A stretch of DNA of 64,000 nucleotides from Branchiostoma floridae. Taxonomy: Eukaryota; Chordata; Leptocardii; Amphioxiformes; Branchiostomatidae. This document shows, one piece after another, positions 3,001 through 64,000 of this stretch. Below the pieces are notes generated by a model that was not told the DNA's origin, did not search any database, and saw only the letters and a list, made by a program, of their open reading frames with translations. The DNA is taken from NCBI RefSeq assembly GCF_000003815.2, contig NC_049987.1, forward strand, positions 14,635,713 to 14,699,712, read 5' to 3'. How positions within the stretch are numbered: position 1 is the first letter of the stretch; each line of letters opens with the position of its first letter. Made by a program: the position numbers and the translations under genes.

Positions 3001-3124
3001 CCGCCAGACATTCTTTGCAAAAGGTGTGCAGACATGGAAGTATTTTAGGCGCATGGAAGGGTTGCAGGCAGATCTGACACTCGAGAAAGTCGTTGGATAT
3101 TTCCTTCAGAAGTGATGCCGCCAT
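1..3124 (-). CDS. RING/B-box/coiled-coil (TRIM-like) protein with NFX1-like zinc region and C-terminal ubiquitin-like domain; left copy, 3' end off window
   Basis: Minus-strand gene with coding exons 2023-3124, 1197-1378 and 550-667; a fourth begins at base 1 and runs off the window. Junctions are GT/AG and the frame stays open. Exon 1 (367 codons) encodes a C3HC4 RING (CQIC at 16-19, CLHTFC 31-36, CPTC 56-59), a B-box1-like zinc region (about 101-140), a B-box2 (about 165-200) and a coiled coil. Exon 2 is Cys/His-rich, with LPCGHPC and LKCGH motifs like NFX1-type zinc fingers. Exon 3 gives the first half of a ubiquitin-like fold (IFVQLQS...VASIKKRC). The RING predicts E3 ubiquitin ligase activity; substrate and pathway are unknown. 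Exon lengths equal those of the right-hand copy (1102, 182, 118 bp) and exon 1 proteins are about 89% identical by eye. Start chosen as MAASLLKEIS, shared by both copies. Confidence 0.85.
340..531. repeat. Hairpin MITE-like element in intron 3 of the left TRIM-like gene
   Basis: The arm CCAAGCAGAGGTTCGG (340-355) is repeated inverted at 516-531, with further inner pairing through AAAAACAG and AGGCGTT. A diverged copy occupies the same intron of the right gene (about 6236-6425), so insertion probably predates the duplication. Confidence 0.55.
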
Positions 3125-4211
3125 CTTGTTTCGAATTCTTCTTGTTCTTCGAATAGCCTACGTCATAATACAGGTACGAATACCGCAAGTCATGTCGGGA
3201 ACAACTTTTCAGTTTGGACTGTATGTTTCATGCAAATTTCCAAAAATGAATAAGTAGCTTTACCTATTGATATTCAAAAGTCCGTCGCATACAATACAAG
3301 AGTTCGGAGACCTCATACCGCCAGGAAATATTTAGAGCCTTAAAGTTGTAATTAGCATTGCATATTTTACTTCTGATTGTATAGAAGTCCCTTTGTGTGG
3401 CAAATGTCCATGTTTCCTTTAAATTTCATAAATCATGCAAAGGGCATGTGTATACCATTAAAATGATACACGTCACAATTTACCACTATGGAAATTAACG
3501 TTAATTATTACATTCACCACTTTACTCGTTTGTATAATAATTATCTGTTAGTGTTTCTCCTTCCATGAATTATACACGTTAACGTTACATGTAAGAAAGT
3601 CCTTTCAGAAAACACTAGAATTACAAATTTTTCTTAACTACGTCATTAAGTCTTGATTCGCATAATTTGCATGTCATGGTGTACATCTCTATTTAAAGGT
3701 GAAACACAGACAAATTCTTACTATGCAAACGAGATTCTTATTGCATAATTATTGAAGAAATAGTAACTGTTGACGTTAACGTTATACCGCTAATTAAATT
3801 CCACAGTAGTAAGTTGTGACATGTATCATTTAAATGGTATAGCGTAGATTACGTCCTTTGCATAATTTATGAAAAAAAGGAAACAAGGACCTTTGCCAAA
3901 CAAAAGGAATTCTACAAAGTAATTTTGGTTAAGAAGATCATCATAAGTATAAAAAAAAACCTTTTTTGCATAATCAATGAGAGAAGATGAAATGGTAAAT
4001 CTTCATAGGCTCTAAATATCTCCTAGCGATATGAGGTCTCCGAACTCTTGTATTGCATATGACGGCCTTTATCAATAAGTAAAGCGTTACTTATTCATAG
4101 TAAGTTTCGCATCACGTACTGTCGTACACTACAGTCCCTTGTTCAAACTGAAAAGTTGTTCCCGACATGACTTGCGGTATTAGTATTATGACGTAGGGGA
4201 ATCGAAACAAG
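3125..4211. promoter_or_regulatory. Shared palindromic upstream region of the two TRIM-like genes
   Basis: This 1087-bp spacer between the two start codons is an imperfect palindrome, so each gene carries a mirrored copy of the same 5' flank. A CRE/ATF-like TGACGTA motif sits within about 50 bp of each ATG (3159-3165 in reverse, 4189-4195 forward). The rest is AT-rich, with several ATTATGC/GCATAAT motifs. Promoter activity is inferred from position only; I see no clear TATA box. Confidence 0.45.
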
Positions 4212-18077: not shown

Positions 18078-21000
18078 TTACTGTGAGGAGATGGCGGCAG
18101 GGCTGTGAGCAGGCATCATGACGTGGTGGTGATGGTGGCCGTTATGGGCCAGGTGGTGCGGGATGGGGGAGGGCGCTCCTCGGTGGATGTCGATGTCGTC
18201 CCCGCCGTTGTACATGCCGTGGCCGTTGGTCATCAGTCCGTTGCCGTTGACGTGCCCGTTGGCGTGGCCGTTGACGTGACCGTTCATGTGGCCGTTCATC
18301 CCGTTGACGGCGTGGTACGGCGACATGCGACGTTCCTTCTGGCGGCGGTTACAGAACCATACGCGCACAACCTATGTGGGACAAAATATTAAGAAAGTGA
18401 ATAAAAGACCAAAGCGTCAAAGAAAGCCATCGTTACTGTCGTTTCGATTCAAATAGTAATCGTTGTCCTAAAATATAGTTATTGGATGTGAAAGGCTCTG
18501 ATTAGTGATAATAAAGAAGAAATCAATCATTATCAGTCAACATCAAATTCTGTACGTGCTCAAAGGACGTTATATGAGACGTCCTTGCGTGCTCAAATTA
18601 AGAAGTGAGTGGGTCAGTTTCTAAAAGAAGGTGACAATTCCGTTACAAATTGAATGACATTTTCTAACTTTTGTTAGAAAAAAGTTGATCATCATCTTTA
18701 CCTCTTTGTCAAGGTTGAGTCCCTCAGAAAGTTGGCTAATCTCGATCGCAGACGGCTTGGGCTGCTTGTAGAAGAAAGTTTCCAATGCACCTTTCACTGA
18801 CACCTGGGGGACAAAATAGTCTGGTATCAGTACATGTAAACATTTGATAAGCTTTGCAGTGTCGTATTTACTTTTTCTTTCAATAGTAGTTATTGTTATT
18901 GAAAATCATAACCATCCAAATGATCAATCCTAGAAGCCTTCAAAAACAAAGAAAGGCTAGTTCAAAACAAGTATTTAGTTTCTGCTTTTGTTCTTAAAGT
19001 TCCAGAATGTCATTTCAATCAAACATTAACTTGGAATAAGTTACCATTATTAGCATTAAAGCGAATAAAAGTAACTAGTAAACAGTAGAAATGAAACTTT
19101 TGACTGATAACTCGTTTACTTCTGTGTTGAAATGTTATGAAGCTTTGAAAGTCGTCTTATGTTAGGCATAGCTTGGAATGGCATGGTCTGTCGCGTGGTG
19201 ACAAGACGAAAAATGCCCTCCAGTCTTAAGACCTATAATCAAGCAGTGATGACGCAGACCGAACACGTTTCGGGAAGTCAAAATGATAGGGTTAGAGTTA
19301 GACAGGAAATACACGCACTTAATCACATTAAACATCTGCACTAGAGGGTAGATCCGTAAAATTGGTAAGAAAAGGGGAAATGGAAAGAAAACGAAAACAT
19401 CAGAAATATACTGCAGTTTTTCAGAGGCACATTCGATTGGCAAAATACTAATAGGAAATGACTTTTTTGTCAAAATTAAAAAAAAGCAAAGAAATGGAAA
19501 ATTGGAAGCAGAACTAGAAATGGAAGAAGCAAAAACGAACCAGCAAAAACAACAACCGTGGCTTTGGTAAAATACTAAGAGATAAAGAACGAAAAAATAA
19601 AACAAAAACAATTCTGTGTCATTGTCAGAGAGTGAAACTTTGGGATTATGCATGCATGTATGATACCCGAATCAGCGAGGATTCACATGCATCGCCGCTT
19701 AAGCAGATCTTCATTAACCTCATCTCATACGCAAACGCCGCCTCTGTTTGTCCACATAATTATGGAAACTTCTATTATGAAAACAAACCAAACTTAAGAT
19801 CACACGCTGGGTGGTGGAGTCTTGAGATTTTGAGACACGTCAAACATTTCAGAAGAAAATTTCACGAAAAATAAAGTTCGTCCATCATTCCTAAGTCTAA
19901 GAAATAAAACTTCACGAAATATTAGAGAGACAATGTACATGGTTTTCTTTGTATGTTTTTGATAACTTTTTATACTCTTTCACCACGGGACGACCAAACT
20001 ACTTTGAATAAGCTAAACAAGCCATCTATCAAATGGACAGTTCTCAGTGAGGTGGAAGGCCAAAGTGCTTGTGATACAAATGTATCTAATTACCGCTAAT
20101 CATACCAAAACCAATCTTTATCTTTTAGGAACACATTTTTCCAGCTTCAGTAAAACGTGTTCTTATATACACTTTGAAAAACAAACGTACATCTATACCC
20201 AACACTTAAATAAACTTTATACGAAGGTTTCTTTTTAGGGGCACTTAGCAACGGACCACCTTGGTTGAAAACCAATTGGAAAGCACTCGTCAAGTGAGGT
20301 CAAATAAGAAGTATTTGTTTACGTGTTTATGCCAATAGTGTTTACTACTGGTGACGTTTTTGGAGGTTTTGAGTGTGGGGCATTGGAATGCCATGTGTAC
20401 TTTGTGTTTTTGTCATAATAATGATAATATTTTTTTGCGCAGCGCCTCTCAAAGTTACTTAGTTTTAGGTTTAGCGATACGAGAAACTAGTATTTGTGGT
20501 AGTTAAAGAAAGAGACTATACTTACTTCGATGCTTGTGCGTTTCTTGCGCTTTCTCCCTGGTGTGATGACCTCCCCTCCTAGCCCTTCGTCTTTGGGTAG
20601 AGAACCTGGGCTCATGTTGGAGTCAGCGGTCTCCAACCACTTCTGTAGAAGCGGTTTCAGCTTGCACATGTTTTTGAAGCTCAACTGCAAGGCCTCGAAC
20701 CGACAGATGGTGGTCTGACTGAGAACGTTTCCGTGGATCGTTCCAAGTGCTAGGCCAACGTCAGCCTGGGTGAAGCCGAGCTTGATTCTCCGTTGTTTGA
20801 AAACCATGGCGAATTGTTCGAGCTCGTCGGCGGTGGGAGACTCCTCTCCGTCCGCCTGTTCCCTGTCGTCGTCCCCCTCTGTGCTGGTTGAACCGCCCGA
20901 GCCGGCGCTGCCGTTGCTACGATGCTCGTTACCGTTGGGGATCTGTACGATAGGCGGCTGGGTAGCCGACGTGAAGATGCCGTTGAGCCCGCCGTGGCCG

Positions 21001-21497
21001 TTGACCATGCCGGTGTAAGCGGAGTGAGGGAAGGCGAAGCCCGCGGGGGTACCTGCTGTGGTTATCGGGGGGATGAAGCTGGAAGGTACGGTGGTAGGTA
21101 GCGAGCCGCCCGGTGGTGGGTAGCCTCTATGCAGACTTACCGGGTGGCCCTCTCCGTTCTCTCTGACCCCGTTGATCTTCCCGTTGAGCTCCTGCGGGTG
21201 CAGGCCCGCGAACCAAGGCGGAGAAGGCGATGTCTCTGACAGTCTAGCCCAAGAAGTTGCGTACGGGAAGGAGTGACCATTTCCCAAACCATTCGTACTA
21301 CTCTGGTGGCCATTCAGCACGTTTAAAGAGTGGCCGTTCTCCGGCGACTTGTGTGTACCGTGGTCTCCGAAGCCGTTGTACGGGGGCGGTATGCTGAGCA
21401 GCCCGGTCCCGTTCTCCAGATGAGGCGGCGAGTTACTCGAGGACGGCGAAGACGAGCTCTGGCTGAACGGGCTCGGGGAAGTCGCCATGTTTTCCAC
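18078..21497 (-). CDS. Pou3l: POU class III-like homeobox transcription factor (amphioxus Pou3-like)
   Basis: Minus-strand exons 20526-21497, 18702-18803, 18078-18371; all GT/AG, phase 0; 324+34+97 = 455 residues. POU-specific domain about 221-293 ([18 protein letters not shown] ... [14 protein letters not shown]). POU homeodomain about 315-374, starting [10 protein letters not shown] and ending in the recognition helix [15 protein letters not shown] with the POU-typical Cys in WFCNRRQK. The [17 protein letters not shown] signature and POU-specific sequence are closest to class III (Brn1/2/4), but the middle of the homeodomain ([20 protein letters not shown]) is divergent. Vertebrate class III genes are intronless; here two introns cut the homeodomain. 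Both flanks are low-complexity and rich in NGH/NG ([13 protein letters not shown] in the C-terminal tail). It should bind octamer-type DNA in the nucleus. The symbol follows the described extra amphioxus Pou3-like gene and is inferred; class III membership is surer. Confidence 0.85.
18804..20525 (-). other. POU gene intron 1
   Basis: A 1722-bp intron between the POU-specific exon and the first homeodomain exon. AT-rich with no convincing ORF. Confidence 0.7.
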
Positions 21498-27700: not shown

Positions 27701-30700
27701 AAAAAATGTCATTGCAGTTGTTTCTGATTCTTTTAATGGTTTTGTCAGATTGTCAGTTTATGAGATATTCCAACAGAGGGCTGAATGGTCTTTGTTCATC
27801 AAACATGTTAGTTGATAAATACAAATTACCATTAAACAATTCATATCTACTGTCTTTTATTCTTTTTTCCTATGTGATAGGTTCTGTAAACACAGAGGCA
27901 CTCCATCTCAGGCAACAAGTTACAGACTTCCTACAGTACATCAAAGTCTTCCTACACAGGTACAGGATCTCAGTATTTGAAAGCTGTGGTAACAGGAAAA
28001 TAAACAAAACAAGAAAAAAATATGATATAAGATGGCTGCATTTTCATTAATTGATTTGATTAATGAAAATTCTTACTGTATTGTATGTATTCCTAGAATG
28101 TATGTAACGGCATATAGAGCATACCTAAACATAGACTTGCTCCCGTCTGTCTGGTCCATTGGTTGTTTCTGGAGAACCGCCATATCTATTTTAGGGTTAA
28201 CATGATACATGTACTAAGTATTTGCGAGATTGCTTCATGAAAATGCTTGGATAAGTAGAATTGAATTTTGTTAAAAATAATATTTTTCAAAGTAAAATCA
28301 ATTTCTGATGTACTGATAAAATGACTAGGCTTATGAATTGATTTTGTTTAATTAGTTTTGTTTGTCAAAAAGTTTACTGCAATGCTGAAATGTGAACATA
28401 AATGCATAATGTACTCCGGTCCATCCGCTCCATCCGAAAAACTGACGAACAGACAGTATGAACATTACTACTTTGCCACAGGTACTACAACCCACCAACA
28501 CNNNNNNNNNNNNNNNNNNNNNNNNNNNNNNNNNNNNNNNNNNNNNNNNNNNNNNNNNNNNNNNNNNNNNNNNNNNNNNNNNNNNNNNNNNNNNNNNNNN
28601 NCAGTTTCCTCAGACTCTACTGCAGGAGCTACAGGGGCTGCTGTCCCATGTGGGACAGATAGGGGGCATACATGAGAGCACTATCAGCTCAGCTGTGTCC
28701 AGGCAGGCTGTCAAGGTCAGGTGGATTTACTTTGTTTTTGGCAACACCTCAGGGGTGCAACCTTTAAACATAGATTTGCTAAGGTCCACTGCTGTTGCTA
28801 TTGTAGTTTAATGTTTTTCACAATTTACCATGTTTAATGATTATTTGACGAATTGGCTAACGATTGTTTGTTTTCACTTTTCAGACTTCTAGCCCTTCCC
28901 ATAGCTTTTTCCATGTTGTTCTTGACGTTTACTGGTCGTCAGTAGAGATTCTCTACATATTACAGACAAAGTGGCCAGGTAAGTTCTACCCAGAAGTTGA
29001 TGAATGAATGTATGAATAAATGAAAGAATAGATAAATGAATCAGCCCTGGCTGTTTGTAAACAGCTGAACAAATAAATAAATAAGTAAATAGATGAATCA
29101 GAAGAAAAAGATGTACTGAAACTAAGACAAAGCTTAGATAAATGGTGACTACTGTTAATCTTGAGTGGTTCACAGTGGTTCTATCAATTTGTGGTTTCTT
29201 TTTTCGGTGACAACCTTGACTTCATTACACTTCAAATAAGTGTTTCCAATGTTTTACTACTGTACAACAAAATTGTTTCAACCATGAATCTAAAACACTG
29301 TTCCCTTTTATCGCAAAATACAACCACTCCAGAACTAAATAGATCTAGAGTATGTAACAGCTTTTCACAAATGTAAGTCAATGGTAAACAAGCTGTCCTT
29401 TTTTTCATTTTCCCTTGGAAACTAAATGCAGAATTTCAAGAGAATAGTATTGTACATGTAGAACCAAAGTTTATCATTATTTACTTGTTTTTCCCCCACA
29501 GATCTGCCTGTACATATGGACCTGTCTAGTTTCCTGCCTAGTGAAGACATAGGAGACAGAGACCTCCTCACACAGCTACTCACAGCTCTACTCTGGGACC
29601 TGCTGGCACTTGCTGCTAGAACTTTTAACAAGGTAGATGTGCTTTGGTTATTATTTTCCTGATCTGTATATGGGAAGGAAGACTAGTCTTCAGCTTTGAA
29701 ACAGACTTTCACATACGGCCACATTCGTTAAAGGCCATCATTTGATCCTGATGTTGTATAATGTTCAAGCAGGCTGTGCAGGGCTCTAGCCAGCTCGAAA
29801 TTTTTTTTCCGTCAGCCAATTCCCATTGTCGCGAAAACCGCGAAAACACTATTCCAGGAGTTAGAGAGACTGAACTGAGATCTTGAAAAACGGGTGTTTG
29901 ATTAGATTATCGTATGGGAAAGGGCGCCGATACACATTATCAACAATCATAACAATAGCAAGACAAACACTGTGTGGCTTTTACGGCCGTGGACAGCGTC
30001 CCCAAGCCGCCTGTAGCTTCTACCAAGGAGGATTGTTGTCCATCAAGGTTGACGGATTGGTTTTAAAATTTTTCCGTCAGACGCAGCAAATTTCCGCCAA
30101 TTGACGGAAAAACGGATGCTGGCTAGAGCCCTGAGGCTGTGACAGAACCAACTGTTGGCAAGAAACTAAGGCAGCTTTCTCTGAATTTTGTATGATGTTT
30201 CTGCAATTTGTGACGATTGTACGACAAATGTGACGGAACCCTAAGTTTTGCTTTATACATTAAGTACTATCACTTTTATCAGAAATTGTAGTGAAAAATT
30301 CGACTGCAGCAGAATTTAGCATTCTTGTTTGGAAAATTGAAAACAAATACAGATTTTCTTTAGAAATGGTTGATATGTTCAGACTCATTCTGATTTTTAA
30401 CCACAACATTCGGATCAAATACTAAGTATACCGGTCCTGTAGCCCCGCACACTTCTGTTAAATGTACAATTGCAAAATAATAAAAAAACATTTAAGTTAA
30501 GAAAGCGCAGTCAAACATCTCATTGGTCAAACTGCTAATTCCCATTCTCTCATTGGTTGAATTGCTAATTGGTATTTGGCAATTTTAAGTCTGTAATTTT
30601 TGTTGCTACACGCTTNNNNNNNNNNNNNNNNNNNNNNNNNNNNNNNNNNNNNNNNNNNNNNNNNNNNNNNNNNNNNNNNNNNNNNNNNNNNNNNNNNNNN

Positions 30701-33700
30701 NNNNNNNNNNNNNNNTACTCCAAGAGACTGGTATGTACTATATGTACTATATGTGCTATATGTGCTAGGTTAACCTGTGGGAACCTAACACACAGGCAGT
30801 GGTGCTGGTCTGGGAGTACTACTCCAAGAGACTGGTATGTACTATATGTGCTGGGTTAACCTGTGGGAATCTAACACACAGGCAGTGGTGCTGGTCTGGG
30901 AGTACTACTCCAAGAGACTGGTATGTACTATATGTACTATATGTGCTGGGTTAACCTGTGGGAACCTAACACACAGGCAGTGGTGCTGGTCTGGGAGTAC
31001 TACTCCAAGAGACTGGTATGTACTATATGTACTATATGTGCTATATGTGCTAGGTTAACCTGTGGGAACCTAACACACAGGCAGTGGTGCTGGTGTGGGA
31101 GTACTACTCCAAGAGACTGGTATGTACTATATGTACTATATGTGCTATATGTGCTAGGTTAACCTGTGGGAACCTAACACACAGGCAGTGGTGCTGGTCT
31201 GGGAGTACTACTCCAAGAGACTGGTATGTACTATATGTGCTATATGTGCTAGGTTAACCTGTGGGAACCTAACACACAGGCAGTGGTGCTGGTCTGGGAG
31301 TACTACTCCAAGAGACTGGTATGTACTATATGTGCTGGGTTAACCTGTGGGAACCTAACACACAGGCAGTGGTGCTGGTCTGGGAGTACTACTCCAAGAG
31401 ACTGGTATGTACTATATGTACTATATGTGCTAGGTTAACCTGTGGGAACCTAACACACTGGCAGTGGTGCTGGTGTGGGAGTACTACTCCAAGAGACTGG
31501 TATGTACTATATGTGCTAGGTTAACCTGTGGGAACCTAACACACAGGCAGTGGTGCTGGTCTGGGAGTACTACTCCAAGAGACTGGTATGTACTATATGT
31601 GCTAGGTTAACCTGTGGGAACCTAACACACAGGCAGTGGTGCTGGTGTGAAGAGACTGGTATGTACTATATGTGCTATATGTGCTAGGTTAACCTGTGGG
31701 AACCTAACACACAGGCAGTGGTGCTGGTCTGGGAGTACTACTCCAAGAGACTGGTATGTACTATATGTGCTAGGTTAACCTGTGGGAACCTAACACACAG
31801 GCAGTGGTGCTGGTCTGGGAGTACTACTCCAAGAGACTGGTATGTACTAACGGGAGGTGCCCCAACACGGTACGCTTTTTCTTGTGCTCAAACTCATGGC
31901 GCTCCATCGCTAGTTGCCTGAGAGTGGTCAAATTTTGATGACTGAATTTTTACACATAGATTTGAACAACATACTTGAATAAGAAATGCATTCATGTGGT
32001 TCGTGAACCTTTCGCGCTGCATGTTACAAGCGGCAAACACTGTGAGACAATTTCGTGTATGTAACCTTCCAATTTTGTGCTACGCTGGACAGTGTGCCTA
32101 ACTCGGTACGCTTTTTTTTACATTTTGCTTTCTTCAGAAGTAAGTGGTAAATTTAAGTACACAGAAAAAATTAATAATATGATATTTTAGCTTTCTTTTG
32201 ACAGTAAAATCGGGACTGTATGTACTTCTTGTCTCACATGAGGAAGGCTGTACCTAGAACAATCCAGCTCATGTTTTTACGGGCAATGGGCTGAATGCAC
32301 TGATTGTGAATGCCCTACTAAAAAAAAACATTACGAAAAAAAGACACCGCTAACATCAACAAAACTCGGTCTGATTATATGAAAATATCATCTACATCTC
32401 TCTATCAAGTCTTATTTTCATAGACAGCACGAATCATTTGTTACAGTCAAATAAATCTTTGGAGCGTACTCTAGTCTGTCACCTTCACGGCCACACGCCC
32501 TTGGGAGTACAATGGTGGCAATGTTTATGTCGCTTCCTTTTGGTTGCTTTTCTACTCAACAGACATTTGAAGACCCATATTCATAGTGTTTTATAGAGCT
32601 TTATTTATGTGTATCATCGCAGTTGTGTGACTGCTTGAAAGAGTTCGTATAGTTAGCGACACGAGCCGCCAATACGCAGAGGCCGGTGACCGCAGTGATT
32701 CAGCACTGTCAACATTACTGTTAGAATTCTGTTTTTAAAAAAAACATGAAGTAAATATGTTAAAGTATACTTGGAATGCAAATTAAAGCTGTGTGCATGG
32801 ACTTGGTTTATTTACCTTTGTAATCAGCATAGTCAGTGGCAACAAACACGGTGTACTTATGGATGGTAAGATCAGCAAAAAATCCGTTCCGTCTTACGAC
32901 GGGGGCCGTCTTAGGGCGGCCCCCGTTACATGTGCTAGGTTAACCTTGAAACATTCTTAAAATCTTTGACTGACAGAAGCCATAATTGTAATGCTTTGAT
33001 AACTTTTTTTTTCCATTGGTCAGATTTGTAATTTTCCTACAAGGGTTTCTCTGACCCATGCATAATTTCAATATGATTGGAACATTTTAGAAATACATTG
33101 TAAAGTCTTTATACACTATTTCTGTACAGGAAGGAAAGCACTTACCAACAAGTTTTTAATCAGTCCTCAAATAGACATGATCTGAATTCTATGTCATATG
33201 ACCTGAACTGAAGCGTGATGTCAACAATGGGTCAAAGGTGCTTGGCAGTTGGTAACAGCCCCTGTCTCGGTTGAGGGATGGTTTTATGTCAAGGATGTAC
33301 TGTGAGAAACTTAAGTCAAGTTTACAACCAATCAAACATTCACTTGAGTGGGATTTCTTTTTCAGAACGACCTGTTTCAAGTGCCAGGGTTGACACTACA
33401 AGGCTTAGCAAGTGTTAGGTAGGTAATCACTTGAACCCATAGACAGTACTTAATGTGTGAAATGTGGCAATGTCATTATGTATCTAATGCTTTGGAATAC
33501 ATGTAAATCAATGTAAGTCTTCTGATTGTAAGAAAGCATTCACTCTGGTAAAAATCCTGTGTAATTTTCACACTTTTGGGCAGAATATATTTAGATGTTG
33601 TAGTAAGGAAATTTTAACACTATCAAGAAGTACTTATGTCTTTAAATAATGTTTTGTCTTTACCCTTCAGCAAAACAGCTCTGTCCTGGTATGAGAAATG

Positions 33701-36700: not shown

Positions 36701-39700
36701 AGAAAAAAATAGGTTCTGAATGCTTCTCCAATGTTTTTCACGAAAGTCATCGTTCCTATTCCCCAGTGAGTTTTCCCAGAAGGGTTTAGATCCGTCCTTA
36801 CGGCACCAGCTGTGGGCCCTGCTCAGTATCTATGTGGAGTCCAGCCAGGATCTATGTGAGAACAGCACTCTACTGCACCTCTCACAGGCCAAGCTACTGG
36901 GTAAGGGCAACAATGCTGTGTATTATTCTCACATTTGAATTCTGACCTTTGAAGACAGCCAGTCGGTACCCAAAGAGTAATGAGGCTGCGCAAAAGTTAG
37001 GACTACGGGGTAGGAGCTTCTGGTCTTCTTTCCTATCTTCCTTCCTTCCTTTCTTTCTTCATTTCTCCCTTCCTTCCTTTTATTATAGTTATGTTATGCA
37101 TGTTATACAGTATGTTATGCAAACTAAGGATCTGCTCCTGAATATCATAATTATGTCTATAATTGGATAAATGTCATGTTGTCGCAAGTAAGTCCTATTT
37201 TTAGTGCTGAGTGAAGTATGTTACGTGATTTTGTGTGCACAGAAACCTGGTTGTATTCTTGCTCTTTCAGAGGAAAGCTCCAATCTATCTGGTCCATCCA
37301 GTAGCATGACTTATGCTTTACAAACGGTCAGTTCTGCTTGGTATGACCAGTTTGAGAAAGAGCTTCTTATCTGTTGAAGTTGATCAAAAGGCCTTTTTTT
37401 CTCCCCTTTTCTGTTTTCTAGCCTCAGGGTACTCCCAGCTACTGCCAGTTTGTAGGGAGACTGAACTGAGGACAGTCTTCAACTTTATACAGACACTGCT
37501 GGCTAAACACAGGTAAGAAAAATGTTTTGGAAGAAGAATTGAACTATGTGGAAAAATCCCTAAATGTGACATACAATTTGTGTAACACAATCAATAGGAC
37601 GTTTTGCTCAGAACCCAGAGGTCCTGGGTTTAACACCCCTGATATGCCCGGATGTTTTTTTGTGGTTACACATACATTTTATACCTCTCTCTGTCAACAT
37701 TTTCCTCTTTCTTCCATTAGACGGTCGTTTCAACAGGGAACACAAAGCAGATTTTCAGCATGCTGTGAACCTAAATGGATTTACTGTAGCACTGTAACAT
37801 TATGGTCTCCCACACTTGTGTCCCTGCAGAAGTCTGTATAAACGAGCCCTAAGACAACAGGAGGAGGGAGTTCAGCAGATACAGTCTACCAACATGGCAG
37901 TTCTACAGCAGCAGTATAGAGGTGTGCAACATTCTCTAACTTGAATATTGTATCAAACAGATGATGATGATGAATATTGTTATTTGATAACAAAGCATTG
38001 TAGGAGCATGTTTATGCAATTTTTTTTGATCGAAGAAATGGGTTTACATTTGAGCAATTTTTGAGTTTGAAGCCAATTCGTAGCACTCTCTTCTGGAGAA
38101 TACACCTCAAGCTTAACATAGAATCCACCAAAGTTATAAGAAAGAGTTACTGTAGTGGTCCTTATCCATGTGACTGGTTCAAAACCTACAGTCAAATGGC
38201 CGTACCTAGCACCAAATGAGGTATCATTTGAGGTCACTGAATAGCGCCAAATGTAATTTAGCCCAGCCTATTCTAAGGGCCTCGCAATTCAGGCCCTGGC
38301 TGCAAAGAGTCAGCGGTGAGCCCACCTGATAACAGTTAACTGTTTGAAATAAGAGTAAGACTTTTGTGACAAGACTAACAAACTCACCAAAATGCATTGC
38401 CAAATTTCCCAATTCTGTATACAGTAGTGCATGCCTACATGTACTAGTTCTGTTGCCCATCCCCAGATATAGCGGATGCCTTGTGGACCCACATCTTCCC
38501 CTACAGTAATGCATGACTACATGTACTGTTGCCTATCCCGAGATATAGCGGATGCCTTGTGGACCCACATCTTCCCCTACAGTAATACATGACTACATGT
38601 ACTGTTGCCTATCCCCAGATATAGCGGATGCCTTGTGGACCCACATCTTCCCCTACAGTAATACATGACTACATGTGCTGTTGCCCATCCCCAGACATAG
38701 CGGATGCCTTGTGGACCTACAGTAATGCATGACTACATGTACTGTTGCTCATCCCCAGATATAGCAGACGCCTTGTGGACCTACATCTTCCCCTACAGTA
38801 ATGCATGACTACATGTACTGTTGCCTATCCCCAGATATAGCGGATGCCTTGTGGACCCACATCTTCCCCTACAGTAATACATGACTACATGTACTGTTGC
38901 CTATCCCCAGATATAGCGGATGCCTTGTGGACCACCTATTCCCCTACAGTAATGCATGACTACATGTACTAGTACTGTTGCTCATCCCCAGATATAGCAG
39001 ATGCCTTGTGGACCCACCTATTCCCCTACAGTAATGCATGACTACATGTACTAGTACTGTTGCCTATCCCCAGATATAGCGGATGCCTTGTGGACCCACA
39101 TCTTCCCCTACAGTAATGCATGACTACATGTACTAGTACTGTTGCTCATCCCCAGATATAGCAGATGCCTTGTGGACCCACCTATTCCCCTACAGTAATG
39201 CATGACTACATGTACTAGTACTGTTGCCTATCCCCAGATATAGCGGATGCCTTGTGGACCCACATCTTCCCCTACAGTAATACATGACTACATGTACTGT
39301 TGCCTATCCCCAGATATAGCGGATGCCTTGTGGACCCACATCTTCCCCTACAGTAATGCATGACTACATGTACTAGTACTGTTGCTCATCCCCAGATATA
39401 GCAGATGCCTTGTGGACCCACCTATTCCCCTACAGTAATGCATGACTACATGTACTAGTACTGTTGCTCATCCCCAGATATAGCAGATGCCTTGTGGACC
39501 CACATCTTCCCCTACAGTAATACATGACTACATGTACTGTTGCCTATCCCCAGATATAGCGGATGCCTTGTGGACCCACATATTCCCCTACAGTAATGCA
39601 TGCCTACATGTACTAGTACTGTTGCTCATCCCCAGATATAGCAGATGCCTTGTGGACCCACATCTTCCCCTACAGTAATGCATGACTACATGTACTGTTG

Positions 39701-42700
39701 CTCATCCCCAGATTTAGCGGATGCCTTGTGGACCCACATATTCCCCTACAGTAATACATGACTACATGTACTGTTGCCCATCCCCAGACATAGCAGATGC
39801 CTTGTGGACCTACATCTTCCCCTACAGTAATGCATGACTACATGTACTGTTGCTCATCCCCAGATTTAGCGGATGCCTTGTGGACCCACATCTTCCCCTA
39901 CAGTAATACATGACTACATGTACTGTTGCCCATCCCCAGACATAGCAGATGCCTTGTGGACCTACATCTTCCCCTACAGTAATGCATGACTACATGTACT
40001 GTTGCTCATCCCCAGATTTAGCGGATGCCTTGTGGACCCACATATTCCCCTACAGTAATACATGACTACATGTGCTGTTGCCTATCCCCAGATATAGCGG
40101 ATGCCTTGTGGACCTACAGTAATGCATGACAACATGTACTGTTGCCTATCCCCAGATATATCAGATGCCTTGTGGACCTACATCTTCCCCTACAGTAATA
40201 CATGACTACATGTACTGTTGCCCATCCCCAGATATAGCGGATGTGGACCCACATCTTCCCCTACAGTAATGCATGACAACATGTACTGTTGCCCATCCCC
40301 AGATATAGCAGATGCCTTGTGGACCCACATCTTCCCCTACAGTAATACATGACTACATGTACTGTTGCCTATCCCCAGATATAGCGGATGCCTTGTGGAC
40401 CCACATATTCCCCTACAGTAATGCATGACTACATGTACTAGTACTGTTGCTCATCCCCAGATATAGCAGATGCCTTGTGGACCCACCTATTCCCCTACAG
40501 TAATGCATGCCTACATGTACTAGTATGTACTGTTGCTCATCCCCAGATTTAGCGGATGCCTTGTGGACCCACATATTCCCCTACAGTAATACATGACTAC
40601 ATGTACTGTTGCCCATCCCCAGACATAGCAGATGCCTTGTGGACCTACATCTTCCCCTACAGTAATGCATGACTACATGTACTGTTGCTCATCCCCAGAT
40701 TTAGCGGATGCCTTGTGGACCCACATCTTCCCCTACAGTAATACATGACTACATGTACTGTTGCCCATCCCCAGACATAGCAGATGCCTTGTGGACCCAC
40801 ATCTTCCCCTACAGTAATGCATGACTACATGTACTGTTGCTCATCCCCAGATTTAGCGGATGCCTTGTGGACCCACATATTCCCCTACAGTAATACATGA
40901 CTACATGTGCTGTTGCCTATCCCCAGATATAGCGGATGCCTTGTGGACCTACAGTAATGCATGACAACATGTACTGTTGCCCATCCCCAGATATATCAGA
41001 TGCCTTGTGGACCTACATCTTCCCCTACAGTAATACATGACTACATGTACTGTTGCCCATCCCCAGATATAGCGGATGTGGACCCACATCTTCCCCTACA
41101 GTAATGCATGACAACATGTACTGTTGCCCATCCCCAGATATAGCAGATGCCTTGTGGACCCACATCTTCCCCTATGTGAAGAAGCACAGCATGACCTTGA
41201 CCCCTCCCCCGACCTTGGCAGACGTGGCGGCAGGCTTCACCTTCCTCGCTCTCGATCTGTGAGTACTGACAAGCTTGTTCAAGTCTGAATTCTCTTATTC
41301 TCCAAAGCATGGTTTTTATACTACTGTAAACGCAAAGCGCGGTGGTTTTATGTTTGCAGTTTTTGCAGTGACAACTTCACCTCCAACTCAAAACCACAGT
41401 GAAAATTTTTGTTATGTTTTCTCCCTTCCTACCTCTTTGTGAAAATGCATACTATCTAATGCTTACAAATTGAACATAGACCCTTTCTAAGAATATTTAC
41501 TGCAGTGGAACTTCTGGTTTTGATTTATGGTGTTCTGGACATGCCATGGTCTTGATTTTGGGATGGTAGAGTATAGTTCTTGCTTGTACTTAAAACTAAA
41601 AGATCCACATTATAAAGAAATTGGTTATCAAAAATCAACTCATTCTATTCCAGTCCATCTACTCCTGATTTCACCAGACAGCAGCAGACATTCTCCAGCA
41701 TATTCCAGTACTTTGGCCCAGAGGACAGTGTGTGTGCAAGGTAAGTCAACTGGTAAACAACTGTACAACAAGAAGAAGGAAAAGGGGGGGCAATATTGCC
41801 AACAAAAATCTCATCTACCCTTTGAGATGTAGTACTTATAAAAGTTTATTCTTTGATTTTGAAGCAGTTTTTATCATGGGAAACATCTACAACAAACTGT
41901 TGATAAAAGAATAATCTGACAATCCTAAATTCACCTTTTCATTTTTCCAAGGAAATGAAAAGGAACTTCAGATTCTATAAAACATTTTCTTTGGAATCTT
42001 GATTCAGAGAAAGGACTTTGAAAGGAATCTTTAGCCTTGCAAAGTAGGGTTGTCCCCCTAGCAGCTTACTTTTTTTGCCGCTGAATAGCACCGGCTTTGA
42101 ATAGACAGAAGCGGTTGGTTCAACCATTCGTTTGTATGCATGGATGGATGCATGGATCAGTCAATTTAACCAAACCCTTCTAATAGGCCTTCTATAGCTA
42201 TATGCCTGATTGCGTAATTGAGTCAGCGTGGTCGAGCGGTCTAAGACACAGTACTTAATATAGCAGTTGCTTCTGCAGCCGTGGATCGTGGGTTCGAACT
42301 CCACATGCTACAATTTTTTTGCTTTGTTAGACAAATCTCATGTACTGTTTTTTAATAGAAAAAAGACCACTACAGTAATTCGATGTTTAAAAACTCTTTT
42401 TCGTGTGATTTTGTTTAACATCCAGGCTTTTTCCAAAATACACACAGGCCAGCTTTTTTCAGAAGCTTTCTTGTTAAAACTAAGTTATCATTAACAATTC
42501 AAGAATTACAGGAGTAACGCTTTAAAGCTTCTGTGATGAACTCTTCTCTTTTCCTTCCCAGTATCTGTTGCCGGTACCTGTGCCACCTGATTCCTAACCA
42601 GTCCTTTATGGACCAGTTGTCGGCGGAGTGTCCGGCGTACCAGTCCGGTATCGTGCACGCCTGGTTCAGGTGCGTTATGCAGACATACGGAGACGACGAT

Positions 42701-52369: not shown

Positions 52370-55230
52370 TTAGATAACTCCCCATCCCTGGATTTCCTTC
52401 ACGATCCTCACCAGATCTGTGTCTGGAGGTTGAATCATCTGGCGTAAGATACGCTGGAACCCCCGAACGGACAATCGGCCTTGAAGTCTGCCTTCAACTG
52501 GTCCAGCGTGTAGCTCTGTAGGCCCATGGATTCTGGAAGAATATATGTTATTTGTTAAAATGCATAGTTTATGTCTATCGATGTTCTTGTTTCCCTTGTT
52601 TGCAAATGTGACATATTTGAATAGTCCTATCATGGGGCGCATTGGGTTTACATGTGTATAACATTTCCTGAATGATTATGTGAGTCAGATAATGATTGGC
52701 ATAATCATAATTAACATCTAAGTATGTCAATCATCATTTAGGCTATCATCCGGGCAGGTATCCAGATTCCGGGCACAAGCTGCTGTATTGAATGCTGCAT
52801 GATACAAAATGCAATACAAAATTAAAATGCTTTCCACAATTGCAATGTAGACTAGGGCCCTTATTTGCATGATATAATATATTTCGTTTATCATCACCTA
52901 GGGTACCTTCTTGTAAAAAAATACAATCTTTCAACCCCTGCTTGAGTTTTCCTCCAAAGTTTCCAATAAAAAGTCCCAAAACAGGTCCGAACACTTTCTT
53001 TGGCGAAGGTGGCAAAGAAAATGTAGACGTAGAACTTGAGTGCTATACTGTGAAATAGGCACACTTATAAGCTATTTCGCAGAGTGTAATACGCATGTGG
53101 CGTCGACAGGAATCCATGGTAATATGTCAAAGGTGAAGGCCCTTAGACGTTAACAGTCTGGTCTCATCGGCCATTGTCTCAATTTTTGTAACAACGTCCA
53201 GAACGTGTCTGCAAAATGGCGGAACGTTTACTTTCTGGGGCCTTCACCTTTGACACATTACCCAGAATTTCTGTCGTCCGCACATGGGCAGTGAACTCTG
53301 CGAAAGAGCTTATTACCGATCTCACCGTTTGGGCCAAGTGTCTCCTGCAGTTTGTGGTGATAGTGAGCCAATATGTCGTCCCTGTGGTTGTGGAAGACGT
53401 CCCAACCGGTGTTACACACCAACAGGAAAGCCAGGTCTGAGCTTGGTGGCAGGTACCGAGGCATCTGCCAGTCCACCAGCCTTGCGTCAATGGGTACGTC
53501 TCCTGCATGCTTTGTGTGGGCCAAATATCGCAGGAACCATAACTTTTCTTGTAATACGATTAAAGAAAACCAACAAGGAAAACCAACAAAACGCAACAAA
53601 GATATTCATTATCACCCCAGATAACCAAGGAGCTTTCATCAACTGGAAGTTCCTTGAGATAACCGTTACATTTGAACAGGAAAAGGGTGATAAGAAATGC
53701 TTGTCAAATAAGATGGTCACGCAAGCTATAAACATAATGGTGAGGATGCAACGGTGGCCGAAGATAGTTTGTAGGTAAAAGAAAAACAACCACATTGGCA
53801 CAGTGCCCAATCCTAGCAGAACGAGAGGAAGAAGATTATGGTAAAGGCTCCACAGAAACGACATCGCCGACAAGCCGAGCGGATGCAGTAGCTATCTTTT
53901 CAAAAACATTTTTTTTATTGAACAAACACATAAAGGCAAAATAACAGACAAGTAGCGTCCCAGTCCAGTTAAGACAACTTCTTTCGGTGCCGCTATTTAA
54001 AAGAAAATAAGAATAACATATGATTGACAAGATGCAGTAAATCTGTGCAAATGGTATACTAGTGTATTGACTGATGGAAGCGCAAGTCCTGGTCCCCCCC
54101 CCCCCCGGAAATATAGGACACGGAAAAAAACATGGTTAGAAACGGCCAGTTTGCATAATGAAGTTCTGAGTTGGAGACATAATCAAACAGTTTGTGGAAT
54201 AGTTACAAAGGGAAGTACCAAATAAAAGTAGTAAATATTTGATTTCACCATCAGAGAGAGAGAAAATATTGAAAAATAGTAGCTATCTGTATGCAGGATG
54301 AACTGGAAAGGCACCTAGGTGTGCAGCTGGCCGGAAAGCTGAGACCGGGGCACTAAGCTACGCAAAAGAGGTAAAGTAATTTCCTACCTTTAACATAATG
54401 TTATTGATCCAACAATCAGAATGGCAAAGCACTCTGACCCTCGGGTCCTCCGGGCCGATGAGAGGGGGGCGTAACTTTTCCAACCGAGCTACAAGGTCTG
54501 CCTGGTCAGGAAAAGCTGCGGCAAAGACTTTCAGGTTGGTCTGATATTGGTAGGTTACTGCATCCACCACGTCACTAACATCTGAGTGAGTCATGATCCA
54601 GTCGTACTTCTCGGGAAGGGGGACGCCTGAACGGAGCTCCAGACGATGTGACAGGCCGTGCAGCTGCGCCAGGGCCCCGGCTGTCAACATCGTCTCCTCA
54701 CGGCTCAGTGGTTGCCCTTTGGGTTTTATGGAGAACCCCTGAGCTTTCAGGTTCTCCATAACCCTGACGGACAGCATGGAGCTCGGGTCGGTGGCCGCGA
54801 AGTAGCATTTTGGGAGGAACAAGGACTCAGCATGAGGGCGATTTTCGTCATCTTCATCCCCAGATTTTTGCTCTGCGCTTTGGACTGCAACAGATAGAAG
54901 CTCGGGGACCGCCTTTGAGTAGAACTTGACTTCGGTCGTCTCAGCTCTGATCTGAAAGTCCTTTGACCACTGTTTCATCACCGACCACGGCCGCGCGAAG
55001 TTCGTCAGTTTGGCGACGAGGCTGTATCGCTGACTGGTGCCGTTCCTGGTCCCCACGGCATCAAAAGCGATGATGTCGCTAATGAACCCCTCTCCTTCGC
55101 TGATGTTTCCTTTGACACTGACGTCCGTGATGGTGACGCCCGGTAGGTCCTTCTGCAGTACCTGCTGCACCCAGGAGGGGGCGATGTCTTCGGTAGACTG
55201 CGGAATGGCGATCTCGGCTGTTGAAGCCAT
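52370..55230 (-). CDS. CHK/EcKinase-like (choline-kinase-like, DUF1679-type) protein; frameshifted last exon, possible pseudogene
   Basis: Minus-strand exons 54388-55230 (281 codons), 53326-53542 and 52370-52532. Exon 1 carries the catalytic-loop-like CHSDCWINNIML (family form HGDxWxxN) at its end; exon 2 has VDWQMPRYLPPSSDLAFLL, the DxQ metal-binding region and following helix; exon 3 has the family-like SYTLDQLKADFKAD. Together they match the aminoglycoside-phosphotransferase-like CHK kinase family; substrate unknown. Two oddities: the exon 2 acceptor is poor, and using AG at 53543-53544 adds LWFLR compared with the family; and in exon 3 the frame hits TGA at 52435-52437, while two bases fewer in a GGGGG run near 52470 would continue it to a family-like end (WGVI, TAA at 52370). 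This is either a recent pseudogene or a homopolymer error. Start chosen as MASTAEIA at 55230; an in-frame upstream ATG at 55332 exists. Confidence 0.7.
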
Positions 55231-55499
55231 CTTCTGCAGTAGTATTTCTCGAACTATTAGGAAATACTTGCACAGATACGGAGTTTTCTCCGAAGACAAA
55301 GATATACTGACATTAATTGTGCTTGTATTCATAGAAACCCTACTAACGTTGAGTAGTATTGCATAGTTGCTCCCTCGTCCTTTCGTCTTTGACAGTAAAA
55401 TGTACTAAGTGAAATATAAATTATGCAAAGTAGGAGGAAATTTGATTAATCAATGACAATATATTATCATAGTAGTTGTTTTAATGGAATTTCTGTCCT

Positions 55500-57661: not shown

Positions 57662-59650
57662 TCAGGAGCAGATAGTTGGCTTCTCTATGAGGTTGTTTTT
57701 TATGCTTTTCTTGAAAACGGAAAGCGACTGACAATTTCTGTTGGAAAGACTTAGAGTGTTCCATATGGATGGGCCCCTAAACAATATAGTGAATTGTGTT
57801 AGGTTAGATTTTGTTTTAATAGGTCTAAGTCTGTTTTGCTGCCTCGTACTGTGATCGTGAATATCTGAGTTGTACTTGAATATGTCTTTATATAGGACTG
57901 GTAAAGAGGGACTGTTGTGAATAACTTTATGGACGAAAATGGCTGACTGTAATTTGTTTATGTCATATACTGTCAAGATTTTCAGATTGTGAAACAAAGC
58001 TGCTGAGTTTGCTATAAATGAGGCGTTTGAAGCAATTCTAACAAAACGTTTTTGTAGCAGGTGCAGAGGTTTTATTGAGGTCGTGTAAGTACTAGCCCAG
58101 ATGATATTACAATATGTTAAGTAGGGGTATATCAAGCTGTGGTAAAGAGTCATAAATATTTTACGAGATAGACAATTTGCAACTTTTCTTATAATACCAA
58201 TATTCTTAGAAATTTTCTTGCAAATAATGTCAATGTGAAATTTCCACGTGAGTTTTTCATCTATAACGACTCCTAGAAACCGTGCATTACTTACATGTTT
58301 AATGGGTTTATTCTCTATGTATATCTTAGCCATTTCTTTACTGTATTTCTTATTTCTTCCTGTGAAAATTATGAAATTTGTTTTGTCAATATTTAGGGAC
58401 AGCTTATTTGACTTAAACCATTGATTTAATTTGCAAAGTTCGTCATTTATTGTTGAAATAAGTGTATCAAAATTTTTATGCGAAATAAAAAGATTGGTGT
58501 CGTCGGCAAATAGTAAAGCGAAAAATTTCTCTGATATCATGGGTAGGTCGTTTACATAAATCAAAAATAAAAGAGGTCCTAGTATGGAGCCTTGCGGGAC
58601 ACCACGTGTTACAAATTTCTGGGACGAGACAAAACTGTTATTAGAAACATACTGCGTTCTCTCTAACAGATAATCTTTTAACCACTGAAGGACAGAGCCT
58701 TTGAATCCATATGAGTTGAGTTTGCCAAGTAATATGTTGTGATCGACTGTATCAAACGCTTTAGAGAGGTCTAGGAATATTCCAATTGTGAATTCTTTAT
58801 TTTCCAGGGCTGACGTAATTTTGTCTATGAGTTGTAGAAGGGGCATATAAGTTGAATAGTTTTTCCGGAAGCCATATTGGTGTGCATATAGAATATTGTT
58901 ATCATCTAGGTGCTTTAGAATTCTTTTGTATACTACTTTTTCTAAGATGTTTGAAAATACAGGTAATATGGATATGGGGCGATAGTTTGTGAACAGACAG
59001 GGATTTCCAGATTTGTAAAGAGGGATGACCTTGGCTACTTTTAAATCGGAGGGTACTTTGCCGGTTTCAATGGAAGTTCTAAAGACATATGTAATGGGTT
59101 CTACAATTTCTGAAGCCACCTGTTTCAGTAGTGAGGCCTTGATTTCATCCTTTCCAGGTGCTGCATTTTTTAGATTAAGAATTATGTCAAGAATTTCCGC
59201 TGTGCTGGGCGCATCGAACAAACTGATGGCGGGATATTCATTTTGCAGGTAGGATAAGGGTGAATGGTCAGTCTTGTCGATTTTGTTTGCCAAAGAAGGG
59301 CCAATATTTACAAAAAAATCATTAAATTTGTCGACTATGTTTTGTTGATTAGTTATCTCGTCTTCTCCATCCATAAACTTTGAGGGAAGGGTAGCACTTG
59401 CCTTTTTTCTGTTAAGTAGTTCATTTATAAGTTTCCAAGTATTGCGTATATCGTTTGACACAGTTGTAAACCTATCCTGATAATATTGCCTCTTAGACGT
59501 GCGAATCAAACCATTAAATTTATTTCTATAAGTTTTGTATTTTTGTAAAGTTGTTGGTGTGGGGTTCTTTAAATACTTCCTGTAGAGGCATGTAAGTAAG
59601 GATGCGAGACTGAAATAAACATGCATTTCTTTGGTCAGCCTCTGAGGCAT
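57662..59650 (-). mobile_element. 5'-truncated non-LTR retrotransposon with intact reverse transcriptase ORF
   Basis: Open frame of 662 residues without stops. RT motifs: NAAPGKDEI (about 162-170), TNYRPISILP (221-230), KAFDTVDH (297-304), GVPQGSILGP (350-359) and catalytic FADD (381-384), followed by a thumb/connection region and a long C-terminal domain. No apurinic endonuclease domain precedes it, so the 5' end is truncated near 59650. The motifs fit the Jockey/CR1-like non-LTR group; finer placement is not possible by eye. The uninterrupted frame suggests recent insertion. Confidence 0.9.
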
Positions 59651-60099
59651 TACATTGATATGTGCATTTCAAGGACACACCGCGAGCACAAGACATCAGG
59701 TGGCATCAGTTACGCTGGCTATGTGCCAGTTCACAGTTGTGCTGGTGGTGGGGTCAGCTCAGACGGATGTGAAGACGTGATATCCAAGTAGAAGTGAGGA
59801 GGTAATCTCCAAGAAGGTGTGAGGTGCGCCCCCAACCCAAACCCCGCCATCACAAAAAACAAAACAAAAACATTAACCCCCCTTACAAACACTCTGGATA
59901 TTTCACTCTGGAGGTATGTGGTCTATGAACTCTAGTTTTTTTGTTTCTTGATTGTTTTTTGCTTTCAGACAGACGAGGGCAATGTGGCACTGCACTTAAG
60001 TTTTAGTAACGTATTTCAACAGTGCCACACACAATTATGAAATAGACAACCATAAACCTACATGGTAAAATGTATGAAGGTAATGGGTAAAGGTAGTAT

Positions 60100-61434: not shown

Positions 61435-62750
61435 CGTTATCCACTGTGTCTATAGGGCACGTTGTTGGATGGCAGAGCCCATCCCTCTTCTTGCACTGTC
61501 TTTTACCTCCCCAACCTAAGTCAGGTACCCATTCTTACACCTGGGTGGAGTTAGAAAAGTAAATTTTAAGAGCCAGTCTACGTTCAGCCAGGAATGCCAT
61601 TGCACCAGGAATCAAAATGGTGACCTCTTGATCATGTGTCTGCTAGCCTAGCCACTGAGCCATTTGATGCCACCACATTCATGTGTGTAAATATGATGTG
61701 TATGAAAACTACAAAAAGATGAACTACAAGTCTCTCTAATTGTAGACACATCTTTTTTGCAATTCTTCTTTTATTTTCCATAACAAGCTGGTTTTATTTG
61801 CTCTGAGTTACTTCCTCTTACATTGCTTCCTAGTATCGATACCAAGTTATTTGCCATGACAAAGCCATTTTCTTTGTTGTCCGGCTTCCATGTATATGTT
61901 TTCACATAGTTTATGCTTGGTCCTCTTTTCAGGACACTTTTATACATCACACAAATTAATGTACTTGTACAAAAGTCACATTGCAATTAGAAACATGGGT
62001 TTTTAGATCCAGCAAACTTAATATTAGAGTGTAACCTGATGGTATATATAACATTTCTTACAATAATATCATTATCAGCAATAACAGTTAAGACGTTATT
62101 GTAATATCTGATATTATTGTATAGTTCTAATATTCATTTGAGCTGTTAACGAAACCCTTTCAGAAATACTAGATGTTATGAATGGGAACATATTTTGTAT
62201 TGTTCAGCAACTTTGTTCATAATTATGTCCTATAGAGTAGGGAAATTCAATATATATCCGAGTTAATGTTACTTGTAAACTCTAACACTCATTTCCTAAA
62301 TCTAGATGATCTTGTTCATATATCAAAATGGCTAAGAAGATATTCAGAGATATGTATCATTATAATCTACATCTTCCCACAAGACAATTGTTCATTCTTT
62401 CTTCACCAAACAAGCAAACAAACAACAAATACAAGCATTCACTGTTGAGGGCCTAGTTATTGGCTATACCAACCAGCTGTTAACACAACAGGTGACGCAA
62501 TAAATCTTGAAACTTTTCGATTTTTCTTAAGAGATTGACCAAAGGAATTGATACCTACAAGTATTTTGTAACGAAAGTTGATAAACATCTAGATAACAAT
62601 TAGAAGTCTCGAAGGACAAAGCCATAAAAGGGCAGTTCTTCAGAATTGTTCAGAACATACATCAGCCAGAATTCTGCAGCATTGTATATTATATTACAAT
62701 AAAATATGTTTCCCCTTAGTTATTGGTATTCTGTGATAATGCGACATCAG
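61435..62750 (+). repeat. Segmental duplication, copy 2
   Basis: Counterpart of 49770-52050, without the TTAA element and the 51570-52005 repeat. Ends where the satellite starts (GCGACATCAG then ATCGTAAG). Confidence 0.75.
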
Positions 62751-64000
62751 ATCGTAAGTTGTCGCTTTTTTGCGGTTACCGAAGGGTTCGCTTAGCGGTT
62801 AGCGGTTATCCCCCAGGTGAGCCTTCATTCGTATGTACAAAAGTTACAAAGTAATTTTGGGTACTCAAATCACTTTTTACCTTTTGCCCACGGGTTTTAC
62901 TATGATACTCAAGTGTTGAAAGTAACGCACATTTTGTTTGAAATTTCGGAAGTCCGATCGTAAGGGGTCGCTTTTTTGCGGTTACCGAAGGGTTCGCTTA
63001 GCGGTTATCCCCCAGGTGAGCCTTCATTCGTATGTAGAAAAGTTACAAAGTAATTTTGGGTACTCAAATCACTTTTACCTTTTGCCCACGGGTTTTACTA
63101 TGATACTCAAGTGTTGAAAGTAACGCACATTTTGTTTGAAATTTCGGAAGTCCGATCGTAAGTTGTCGCTTTTTTGCGGTTACCGAAGGGTTCGCTTAGC
63201 GGTTAGCGGTTATCCCCCATGTGAGCCTTCATTCGTATGTAGAAAAGTTACAAAGTAATTTTGGGTACTCAAATCACTTTTTACCTTTTGCCCACGGGTT
63301 TTACTATGATACTCAAGTGTTGAAAGTAACGCACATTTTGTTTCAAATTTCGGACGTCCGATCGGAAGGGGTCACTTTTTTGCGGTTACCGAAGGGTTCG
63401 CTTAGCGGTTAGCGGTTATCCCCCAGGTGAGCCTTCATTCGTATGTAGAAAAGTTACAAAGTAATTTTGGGTACTCAAATCACATTTTACCTTTTGCCCA
63501 CGGGTTTTACTATGATACTCAAGTATTGAAAGTAACGCACATTTTGTTTGAAATTTCGGAAGTCCGATCGTAAGGGGTCGCTTTTTTGCGGTTACCGAAG
63601 GGTTCGCTTAGCGGTTAGCGGTTATCCCCCAGGTGAGCCTTCATTCGTATGTAGAAAAGTTACAAAGTAATTTTGGGTACTCAAATCACTTTTTACCTTT
63701 TGCCCACGGGTTTTACTATGATACTCAAGTGTTGAAAGTAACGCACATTTTGTTTGAAATTTCGGAAGTCCGATCGTAAGGGGTCGCTTTTTTGCGGTAC
63801 CGAAGGGTTCGCTTGGCGGTTAGCGGTCATCCCCCAGGTGAGCCAACATTCGTATGTAGAAAAGTTACAAAGTAATTTTGGGTACTCAAATAACTTTTTA
63901 CCTTTTGCCCAGGGGTTTTACTATGATACTCAAGTGTTGAAAGTAACGCACATTTTGTTTGAAATTTCGGAAGTCCGATCGTAAGTTGTCGCTTTTTTGC
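62750..64000. repeat. Satellite DNA, about 206-bp units, continues past window
   Basis: Six units starting at about 62750, 62956, 63154, 63360, 63566 and 63772 and part of another at 63977. Lengths are 206, 198, 206, 206, 206 and 205. Each has TTTTTGCGGTTACCGAAGGG, GCGGTTAGCGGTTATCCCCC and TTTACTATGATACTCAAGTG. Units differ at few positions, so the array is young. Confidence 0.95.

Follow-up and report, generated by a model that had tools for sequence, protein, structure and literature searches.

In lancelets, minisatellites that lie across an exon-intron boundary are known as mirages, a name that two papers (PMC3087553 and PMC3902484) trace to a 2002 publication. Mirages are known in Adh3 and in the globin genes BflGb6 and BflGb9 (PMC3087553), those in the TnC and PGBD5 genes were added by PMC3902484, and mirage-like structures are cited for the retinol dehydrogenase and presenilin genes. 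Regular splicing is apparently undisturbed by these arrays, as judged from Adh3 data and from reverse transcription PCR (RT-PCR) of the globin genes (PMC3087553), a statement that is repeated for Adh and TnC and supposed for PGBD5 (PMC3902484). Length variation and somatic instability are reported for the Adh3 mirage, and the BflGb6 mirage was apparently misassembled in a genome draft (PMC3087553). Here, we analyze a 64,000-nt stretch of the Branchiostoma floridae genome that contains the gene MMS22L (RefSeq assembly GCF_000003815.2, contig NC_049987.1, positions 14,635,713 to 14,699,712 of the forward strand; hereafter, the window). One intron of MMS22L carries a new, large member of the lancelet mirage class (array B), in which a 3' splice site and the start of the following exon are tandemly repeated, and a second array in the same gene (array A) repeats a 5' splice site. 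The locus, the unit number, a 650-bp block within array B, and the second array are new. The MMS22L array was not met in the literature that we searched, although this search covered titles and the beginnings of abstracts, mostly without subscription papers, and says little.

Array B consists of 36 tandem units with exon starts from position 38467 to position 41138, and Tandem Repeats Finder (TRF) reported 35.7 copies of a 76-bp period at 38450-41174. Cut at a CAGTA..TG motif, the units are 64-86 bp long, and 20 of the 36 measure 76 bp. Each unit joins an intronic part, normally the terminal 39 nt, to an exonic part, normally the first 37 nt. An insertion lengthens the intronic part to 45 nt in nine units and to 49 nt in one, and deletions shorten the exonic part to 25-36 nt in six. 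Only the final unit runs on into the real exon, which continues past position 41174 with TGTGAAG. A 28-mer spanning the junction found 34 matches at three or fewer mismatches, compared with zero in each of 100 shuffles, indicating that the array is not a product of chance. These results bear out a preliminary description of the window, which had reported an acceptor and exon start amplified about 36 times in MMS22L, with only the last unit entering the exon. The unit count is the copy number in the assembly. When the MMS22L exon was searched against the genome (513,431,437 bases in 431 contigs, 19 of which, C1-C19, are 17-35 Mb long), it yielded 31 matches at expect values (E) up to 0.001, all within array B (single haplotype).

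Array B straddles the exon-intron boundary, the position of which was placed by the reading frame and a Pfam match. The exon upstream of the array joins position 41138 in frame, giving the text QYR-DIADALWTHIFPYVKKHSM, and the peptide encoded by the exons flanking the array, which were spliced together by eye, produced one continuous match to the Pfam family MMS22L_N (584-707, E = 3.2e-29, 102.4 bits), in agreement with the gene and phase given in the preliminary description. A single forward frame across 22000-50799 matched both MMS22L_N (E = 1e-21) and MMS22L_C (E = 1.1e-15). In addition, a vertebrate MMS22L-like sequence, used solely as a local probe, gave ordered matches along the window, including one at 41140-41304 (E = 1e-5) that runs beyond array B into the exon. 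Given that this match continues into the exon, the final unit is predicted to be the true exon start. Searches of Pfam with eight short pieces left two unmatched, including the exon after array B, and a 71-residue peptide across the junction reached only E = 0.026, below the cut-off. The same peptide retrieved no MMS22L structure from the PDB, where the best of three matches at E up to 1 was an unrelated protein (E = 0.018), and Rfam gave no match at gathering thresholds.

The AG dinucleotide is kept in all 36 units. The preliminary description had placed CCCCAG and a conserved coding text in every unit, and an in-frame TGA in all units but the last. CCCCAG is indeed present in 35 units, with CCCGAG in unit 2, whereas the exact peptide DIADALWTHIFPY is encoded by 14 of the 36, including the last, and the remainder carry substitutions or small indels. 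An in-frame stop follows each of the 35 decoy acceptors after 12-41 residues, and this stop is TGA in 30 decoys and TAG or TAA in the other 5. In these 30 decoys, the TGA is part of a TGAC motif, which occurs in 33 of the 36 units (TGCC in 3) about 26 nt before the intron end (about 32 nt in the longer units) and which may represent a branch-site-like motif. The spacing between successive acceptors is divisible by three in 1 of 35 cases (81). Among the 155 GT dinucleotides in 38421-41137, none outscored the donor at 41259 (1.14, compared with 0.10 for the best decoy; donor scores are based on textbook weights). RNA structure that would hide the decoys was considered and rejected for 40927-41300 (374 nt, the sole piece folded), which folded no better than shuffled sequences (z = 0.62; 75 of 100 shuffles folded at least as well).

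Table 1. Positions of the arrays, exons, and related features of MMS22L in the window (a slash marks a splice boundary here and in the text).
Feature	Position	Strand	Method
Assembly gap of 100 N bordering array A on its 5' side	30616..30715	.	
Array A, end of another MMS22L exon with its 5' splice site and 20-38 nt of intron, 13 copies visible	30716..31849	+	
MMS22L exon before array B (SLYKRALRQQEEGVQQIQSTNMAVLQQQYR), phase 1 end at GAG/GTGTGC	37830..37921	+	
Intron carrying array B	37922..41137	+	
Array B, mirage of a 3' splice site, 35 decoy units followed by the real exon start	38422..41174	+	Unit cutting, TRF, junction 28-mer
650-bp block, first copy, 2 substitutions relative to 40525-41174	39690..40339	+	
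650-bp block, second copy, final 37 nt are the real exon start	40525..41174	+	
Real MMS22L exon after array B (DIADALWTHIFPYVKKHSMTLTPPPTLADVAAGFTFLALDL), donor TCT/GTGAGT at 41259	41138..41258	+	

About 22 distinct sequences are found among the 36 units of array B, which differ in length and of which the first has private changes. Unit 25 is identical to unit 36 across the 85 aligned columns compared. Because the second copy of the 650-bp block ends precisely at the end of the array, the opening 37 nt of the real exon fall within sequence that was recently copied or converted. Without an outgroup, either direction of copying would fit. Substitutions vary at 8 of 39 columns in the intron part of the unit and at 8 of 36 in the exon part (insertion columns and the last column excluded), the similar variability that drift of the unit as a whole would produce. 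Purifying selection on the decoy signals, or their decay, was therefore not favored, although this comparison has low power because the units are young. We also rejected a regular higher-order repeat: lags 1-17 were compared, lag 11 performed best (mean difference 6.52), and 58 of 5,000 shuffled orders did equally well at some lag. The lag-11 signal may instead reflect a single block duplication. At the unit junction, where CCCCTA is joined to CAGTA, about two bases are shared with both outer edges, which would fit an origin of the array through short homology.

The second array in MMS22L has the opposite polarity. CTG/GTATGT is present at all 13 visible donors of array A (donor score 3.44). 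Its units are 73, 86, 95, and 104 bp long, and the gap truncates the first one that is visible. The consensus of the 66 nt before the donors, VNLWEPNTQAVVLVWEYYSKRL, matched MMS22L_N at 392-412 (E = 1.5e-4, 20.8 bits, below the family cut-off of 27). Since this match lies before the donor copies, array A repeats an exon end together with its 5' splice site. The gap probably hides the authentic exon and further units.

Arrays A and B resemble the published amphioxus mirages in that they are tandem repeats across an intron-exon boundary, with both 3' and 5' boundaries affected, splice signals kept in many units, and units that are homogenized. Array B also shares with them an exon-attached copy at the edge of the array, here the last unit. 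In contrast, array B contains 36 units compared with 6 and 3 in the BflGb6 haplotypes, MMS22L is a gene new to the class and holds two arrays of opposite polarity, and the real exon start lies within the youngest block. The dual-specific splice sites of tandem-repeat genes such as human UBC (PMC10809524) are similar in that splicing acts on tandem, near-identical sites. However, array B is intronic rather than composed of coding monomers, and its spacings are, with one exception, not multiples of three. As a joint donor and acceptor, AGGT was absent from 151 of the 155 GT contexts of 38421-41137, and the other 4 score too low for AGGT. Recursive splice sites, or introns within introns (PMC10809524), likewise place extra splice sites inside an intron, whereas the decoys of array B read CCCCAG/AT or CCCCAG/AC and would rebuild no donor.

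We then looked for mirages elsewhere in the same genome. A search for globins gave nine matches, and the locus of one of them (L030) carries a mirage and serves as a positive control. At positions 954-1601 of this locus, an array of 4.2 copies with a 158-bp period runs into the exon; its unit consists of an intron end and an exon start, and its four acceptors, three of them decoys and the fourth at the exon, lie 154-158 bp apart. In the globin frame, each of the decoys runs into a stop, and the layout is as published for BflGb6 (PMC3087553). A search for ADH returned 25 matches. We also sampled 200 kb as twenty 10-kb pieces, one from the same position on each of C1-C19 and one from the vicinity of the window, and detected 20 minisatellite arrays with periods of 25-400. 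Within this sample, L003 (C2:3000001-3010000) contains 24 recognized donor copies on the minus strand (7452-6093) in a unit of about 50 bp. Fourteen of these donors read CCCAG/GTAAGG, nine read CCCATGTAAGG, and one reads CCTATGTAAGG; the G before GT is lost in 10 of the 24. The donor array lies directly after a likely K/E-rich exon ending in KERVRSVPR. L003 is likely a donor-type mirage, its exon being predicted from an open frame that carries splice signals at both ends. It was the only one of the 20 sampled arrays with a donor score >5, a mark that would miss array A, and the sample was scored for the donor type only. Translation was used to check one array each in L003, L009, L012, and L016. 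The single likely mirage of the sample tentatively corresponds to one case per 200 kb, which is a very rough estimate. The exon-attached copy is the last in array B and in L030 (acceptors) and the first in L003 (donors). Since copies were called authentic by attachment, this pattern is not independent proof that the attached copy is the one used.

The explanation that we favor, and consider very probable, is that array B is a mirage derived from a founder of about 76 bp at the intron-exon boundary, the last copy of which is spliced by exon definition while errors are degraded. The anatomy, the stops, the lack of competing donors in the array, and the presence of the class elsewhere in the genome were observed directly, whereas the acceptor used, exon definition, decay, and the mechanism of growth are inferred. 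The founding unit would have happened to straddle the boundary, so that each copy would include the exon start preceded by a branch-site-like motif, pyrimidine tract, and AG. Growth may have occurred via unequal exchange or replication slippage, with the 650-bp block copied recently. Exon definition, an established concept, would select the last copy, as only there is an acceptor followed within 121 nt by the remainder of the exon with a donor that can be used. The remaining 35 copies would leave as intron, and occasional use of a decoy would lead to a stop within 41 codons and, as expected, to nonsense-mediated decay. Selection of the first-transcribed acceptor would truncate MMS22L in every B-type allele, yet its exons look intact, and exon definition therefore fits better.

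Four observations weigh against this explanation. The real donor at 41259 scores low beside the other MMS22L donors that were scored (3.21, 3.44, and 8.46). Decoys 29-35 can pair with it to give exons of 192-636 nt (192, 268, and 332 nt for the three decoys nearest the real exon), so exon definition alone fails to exclude the nearest decoys; some erroneous RNA would be expected, with decay through its stops. The peptide with a decoy ending matches MMS22L_N nearly as well as that with the real ending (584-702, E = 6e-29, 101.5 bits compared with 102.4), and the Pfam match therefore supports the gene and the phase rather than the choice of acceptor. Lastly, a 650-bp block whose copies differ at a mere two positions could be an assembly duplication.

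The same facts can be read as regulation, in which decoys compete with the real acceptor, decoy-spliced RNA decays, and the length of the array, which differs among individuals and also within them, adjusts the level of MMS22L. Such a role would be in keeping with 36 intact AGs, with a stop after every decoy, with the short exons (192-332 nt) that the three nearest decoys would yield, and with the length and somatic instability of the Adh3 mirage (PMC3087553). However, 30 of the 35 stops are one inherited TGA, so that they do not count as independent evidence, and no greater conservation is visible in the splice signals than elsewhere in the unit, a comparison of low power. RT-PCR of other mirages suggests normal splicing (PMC3087553, PMC3902484), which argues against regulation; the hazard of length-dependent decay raised in the preliminary description is unsupported. 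We thus regard regulation as unlikely. The mechanism favoring the 3'-most acceptor, which had been offered there as the other possibility, is plausible and preferred over the hazard, because the rest of the exon and the donor adjoin that copy alone.

It is highly improbable that array B, or much of its copy number, arose from the assembly of a short repeat or of two haplotypes. The near identity of the two 650-bp blocks, the 100-N gap adjoining array A, and the apparent misassembly of the BflGb6 mirage in a draft (PMC3087553) are all compatible with an artefact, but the roughly 22 distinct sequences, the several unit lengths, and the private changes of the first unit are unlike the stutter of one read, and lancelet mirages have been examined with RT-PCR and in two haplotypes (PMC3087553). 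We give almost no credence to the possibility that the units serve as additional coding exons and thereby extend the protein. While their exon parts retain readable MMS22L-like text, 34 of the 35 acceptor spacings are not multiples of three, every decoy frame contains a stop, and no GT within the array exceeds 0.10 as a donor.

Beyond this locus, it is conceivable, if doubtful, that mirages are frequent in lancelet genes, at a tentative one per few hundred kb, and amount to a large natural experiment on the choice of splice sites. In this reading, a single exon-attached copy beside dozens of near-identical acceptors or donors wins, be it the last of an acceptor array or the first of a donor array, the real exon edge joins the turnover of the array with its coding text being rewritten, and the proportion of MMS22L mRNA that is productive may depend on copy number. 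Experiments on how splicing selects among identical sites usually rely on artificial duplications. With 36 near-identical acceptors in one intron and at least 13 donors in another, MMS22L would provide a natural test of whether the choice is made by the attached exon. Mirage exons may also mislead gene prediction and the mapping of short reads. Since mirages have already been described in lancelets, MMS22L is of interest as a strong example in which the same gene holds a second array of opposite polarity.

The window contains several other features. A tandem array of a 206-bp unit (62750-64000, 6.1 copies in the window) leaves it at the right edge. Self-comparison of the window at lags up to 3,000, with this array and arrays A and B left out, identified six pairs, and a check that was not rigorous placed none of them at the edge of an exon. 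Short repeats at about 42222-42311 and at 37590-37650 appear by eye to be derived from tRNA (GGTTCGAA-type box), and ARAGORN reported no tRNA. Two open frames with RING and B-box domains (TRIM-like) lie about 1 kb apart on opposite strands (1991-3157 and 4197-5486), and the minus strand carries a reverse-transcriptase frame (RVT_1) at 57665-59668 and an ecdysteroid-kinase-like frame at 54361-55404. About 4 kb from MMS22L, a minus-strand open frame (20490-21497) encodes a POU domain (Pfam Pou, E = 5.9e-36); MMS22L and POU3F2 also lie within one region of the human genome.

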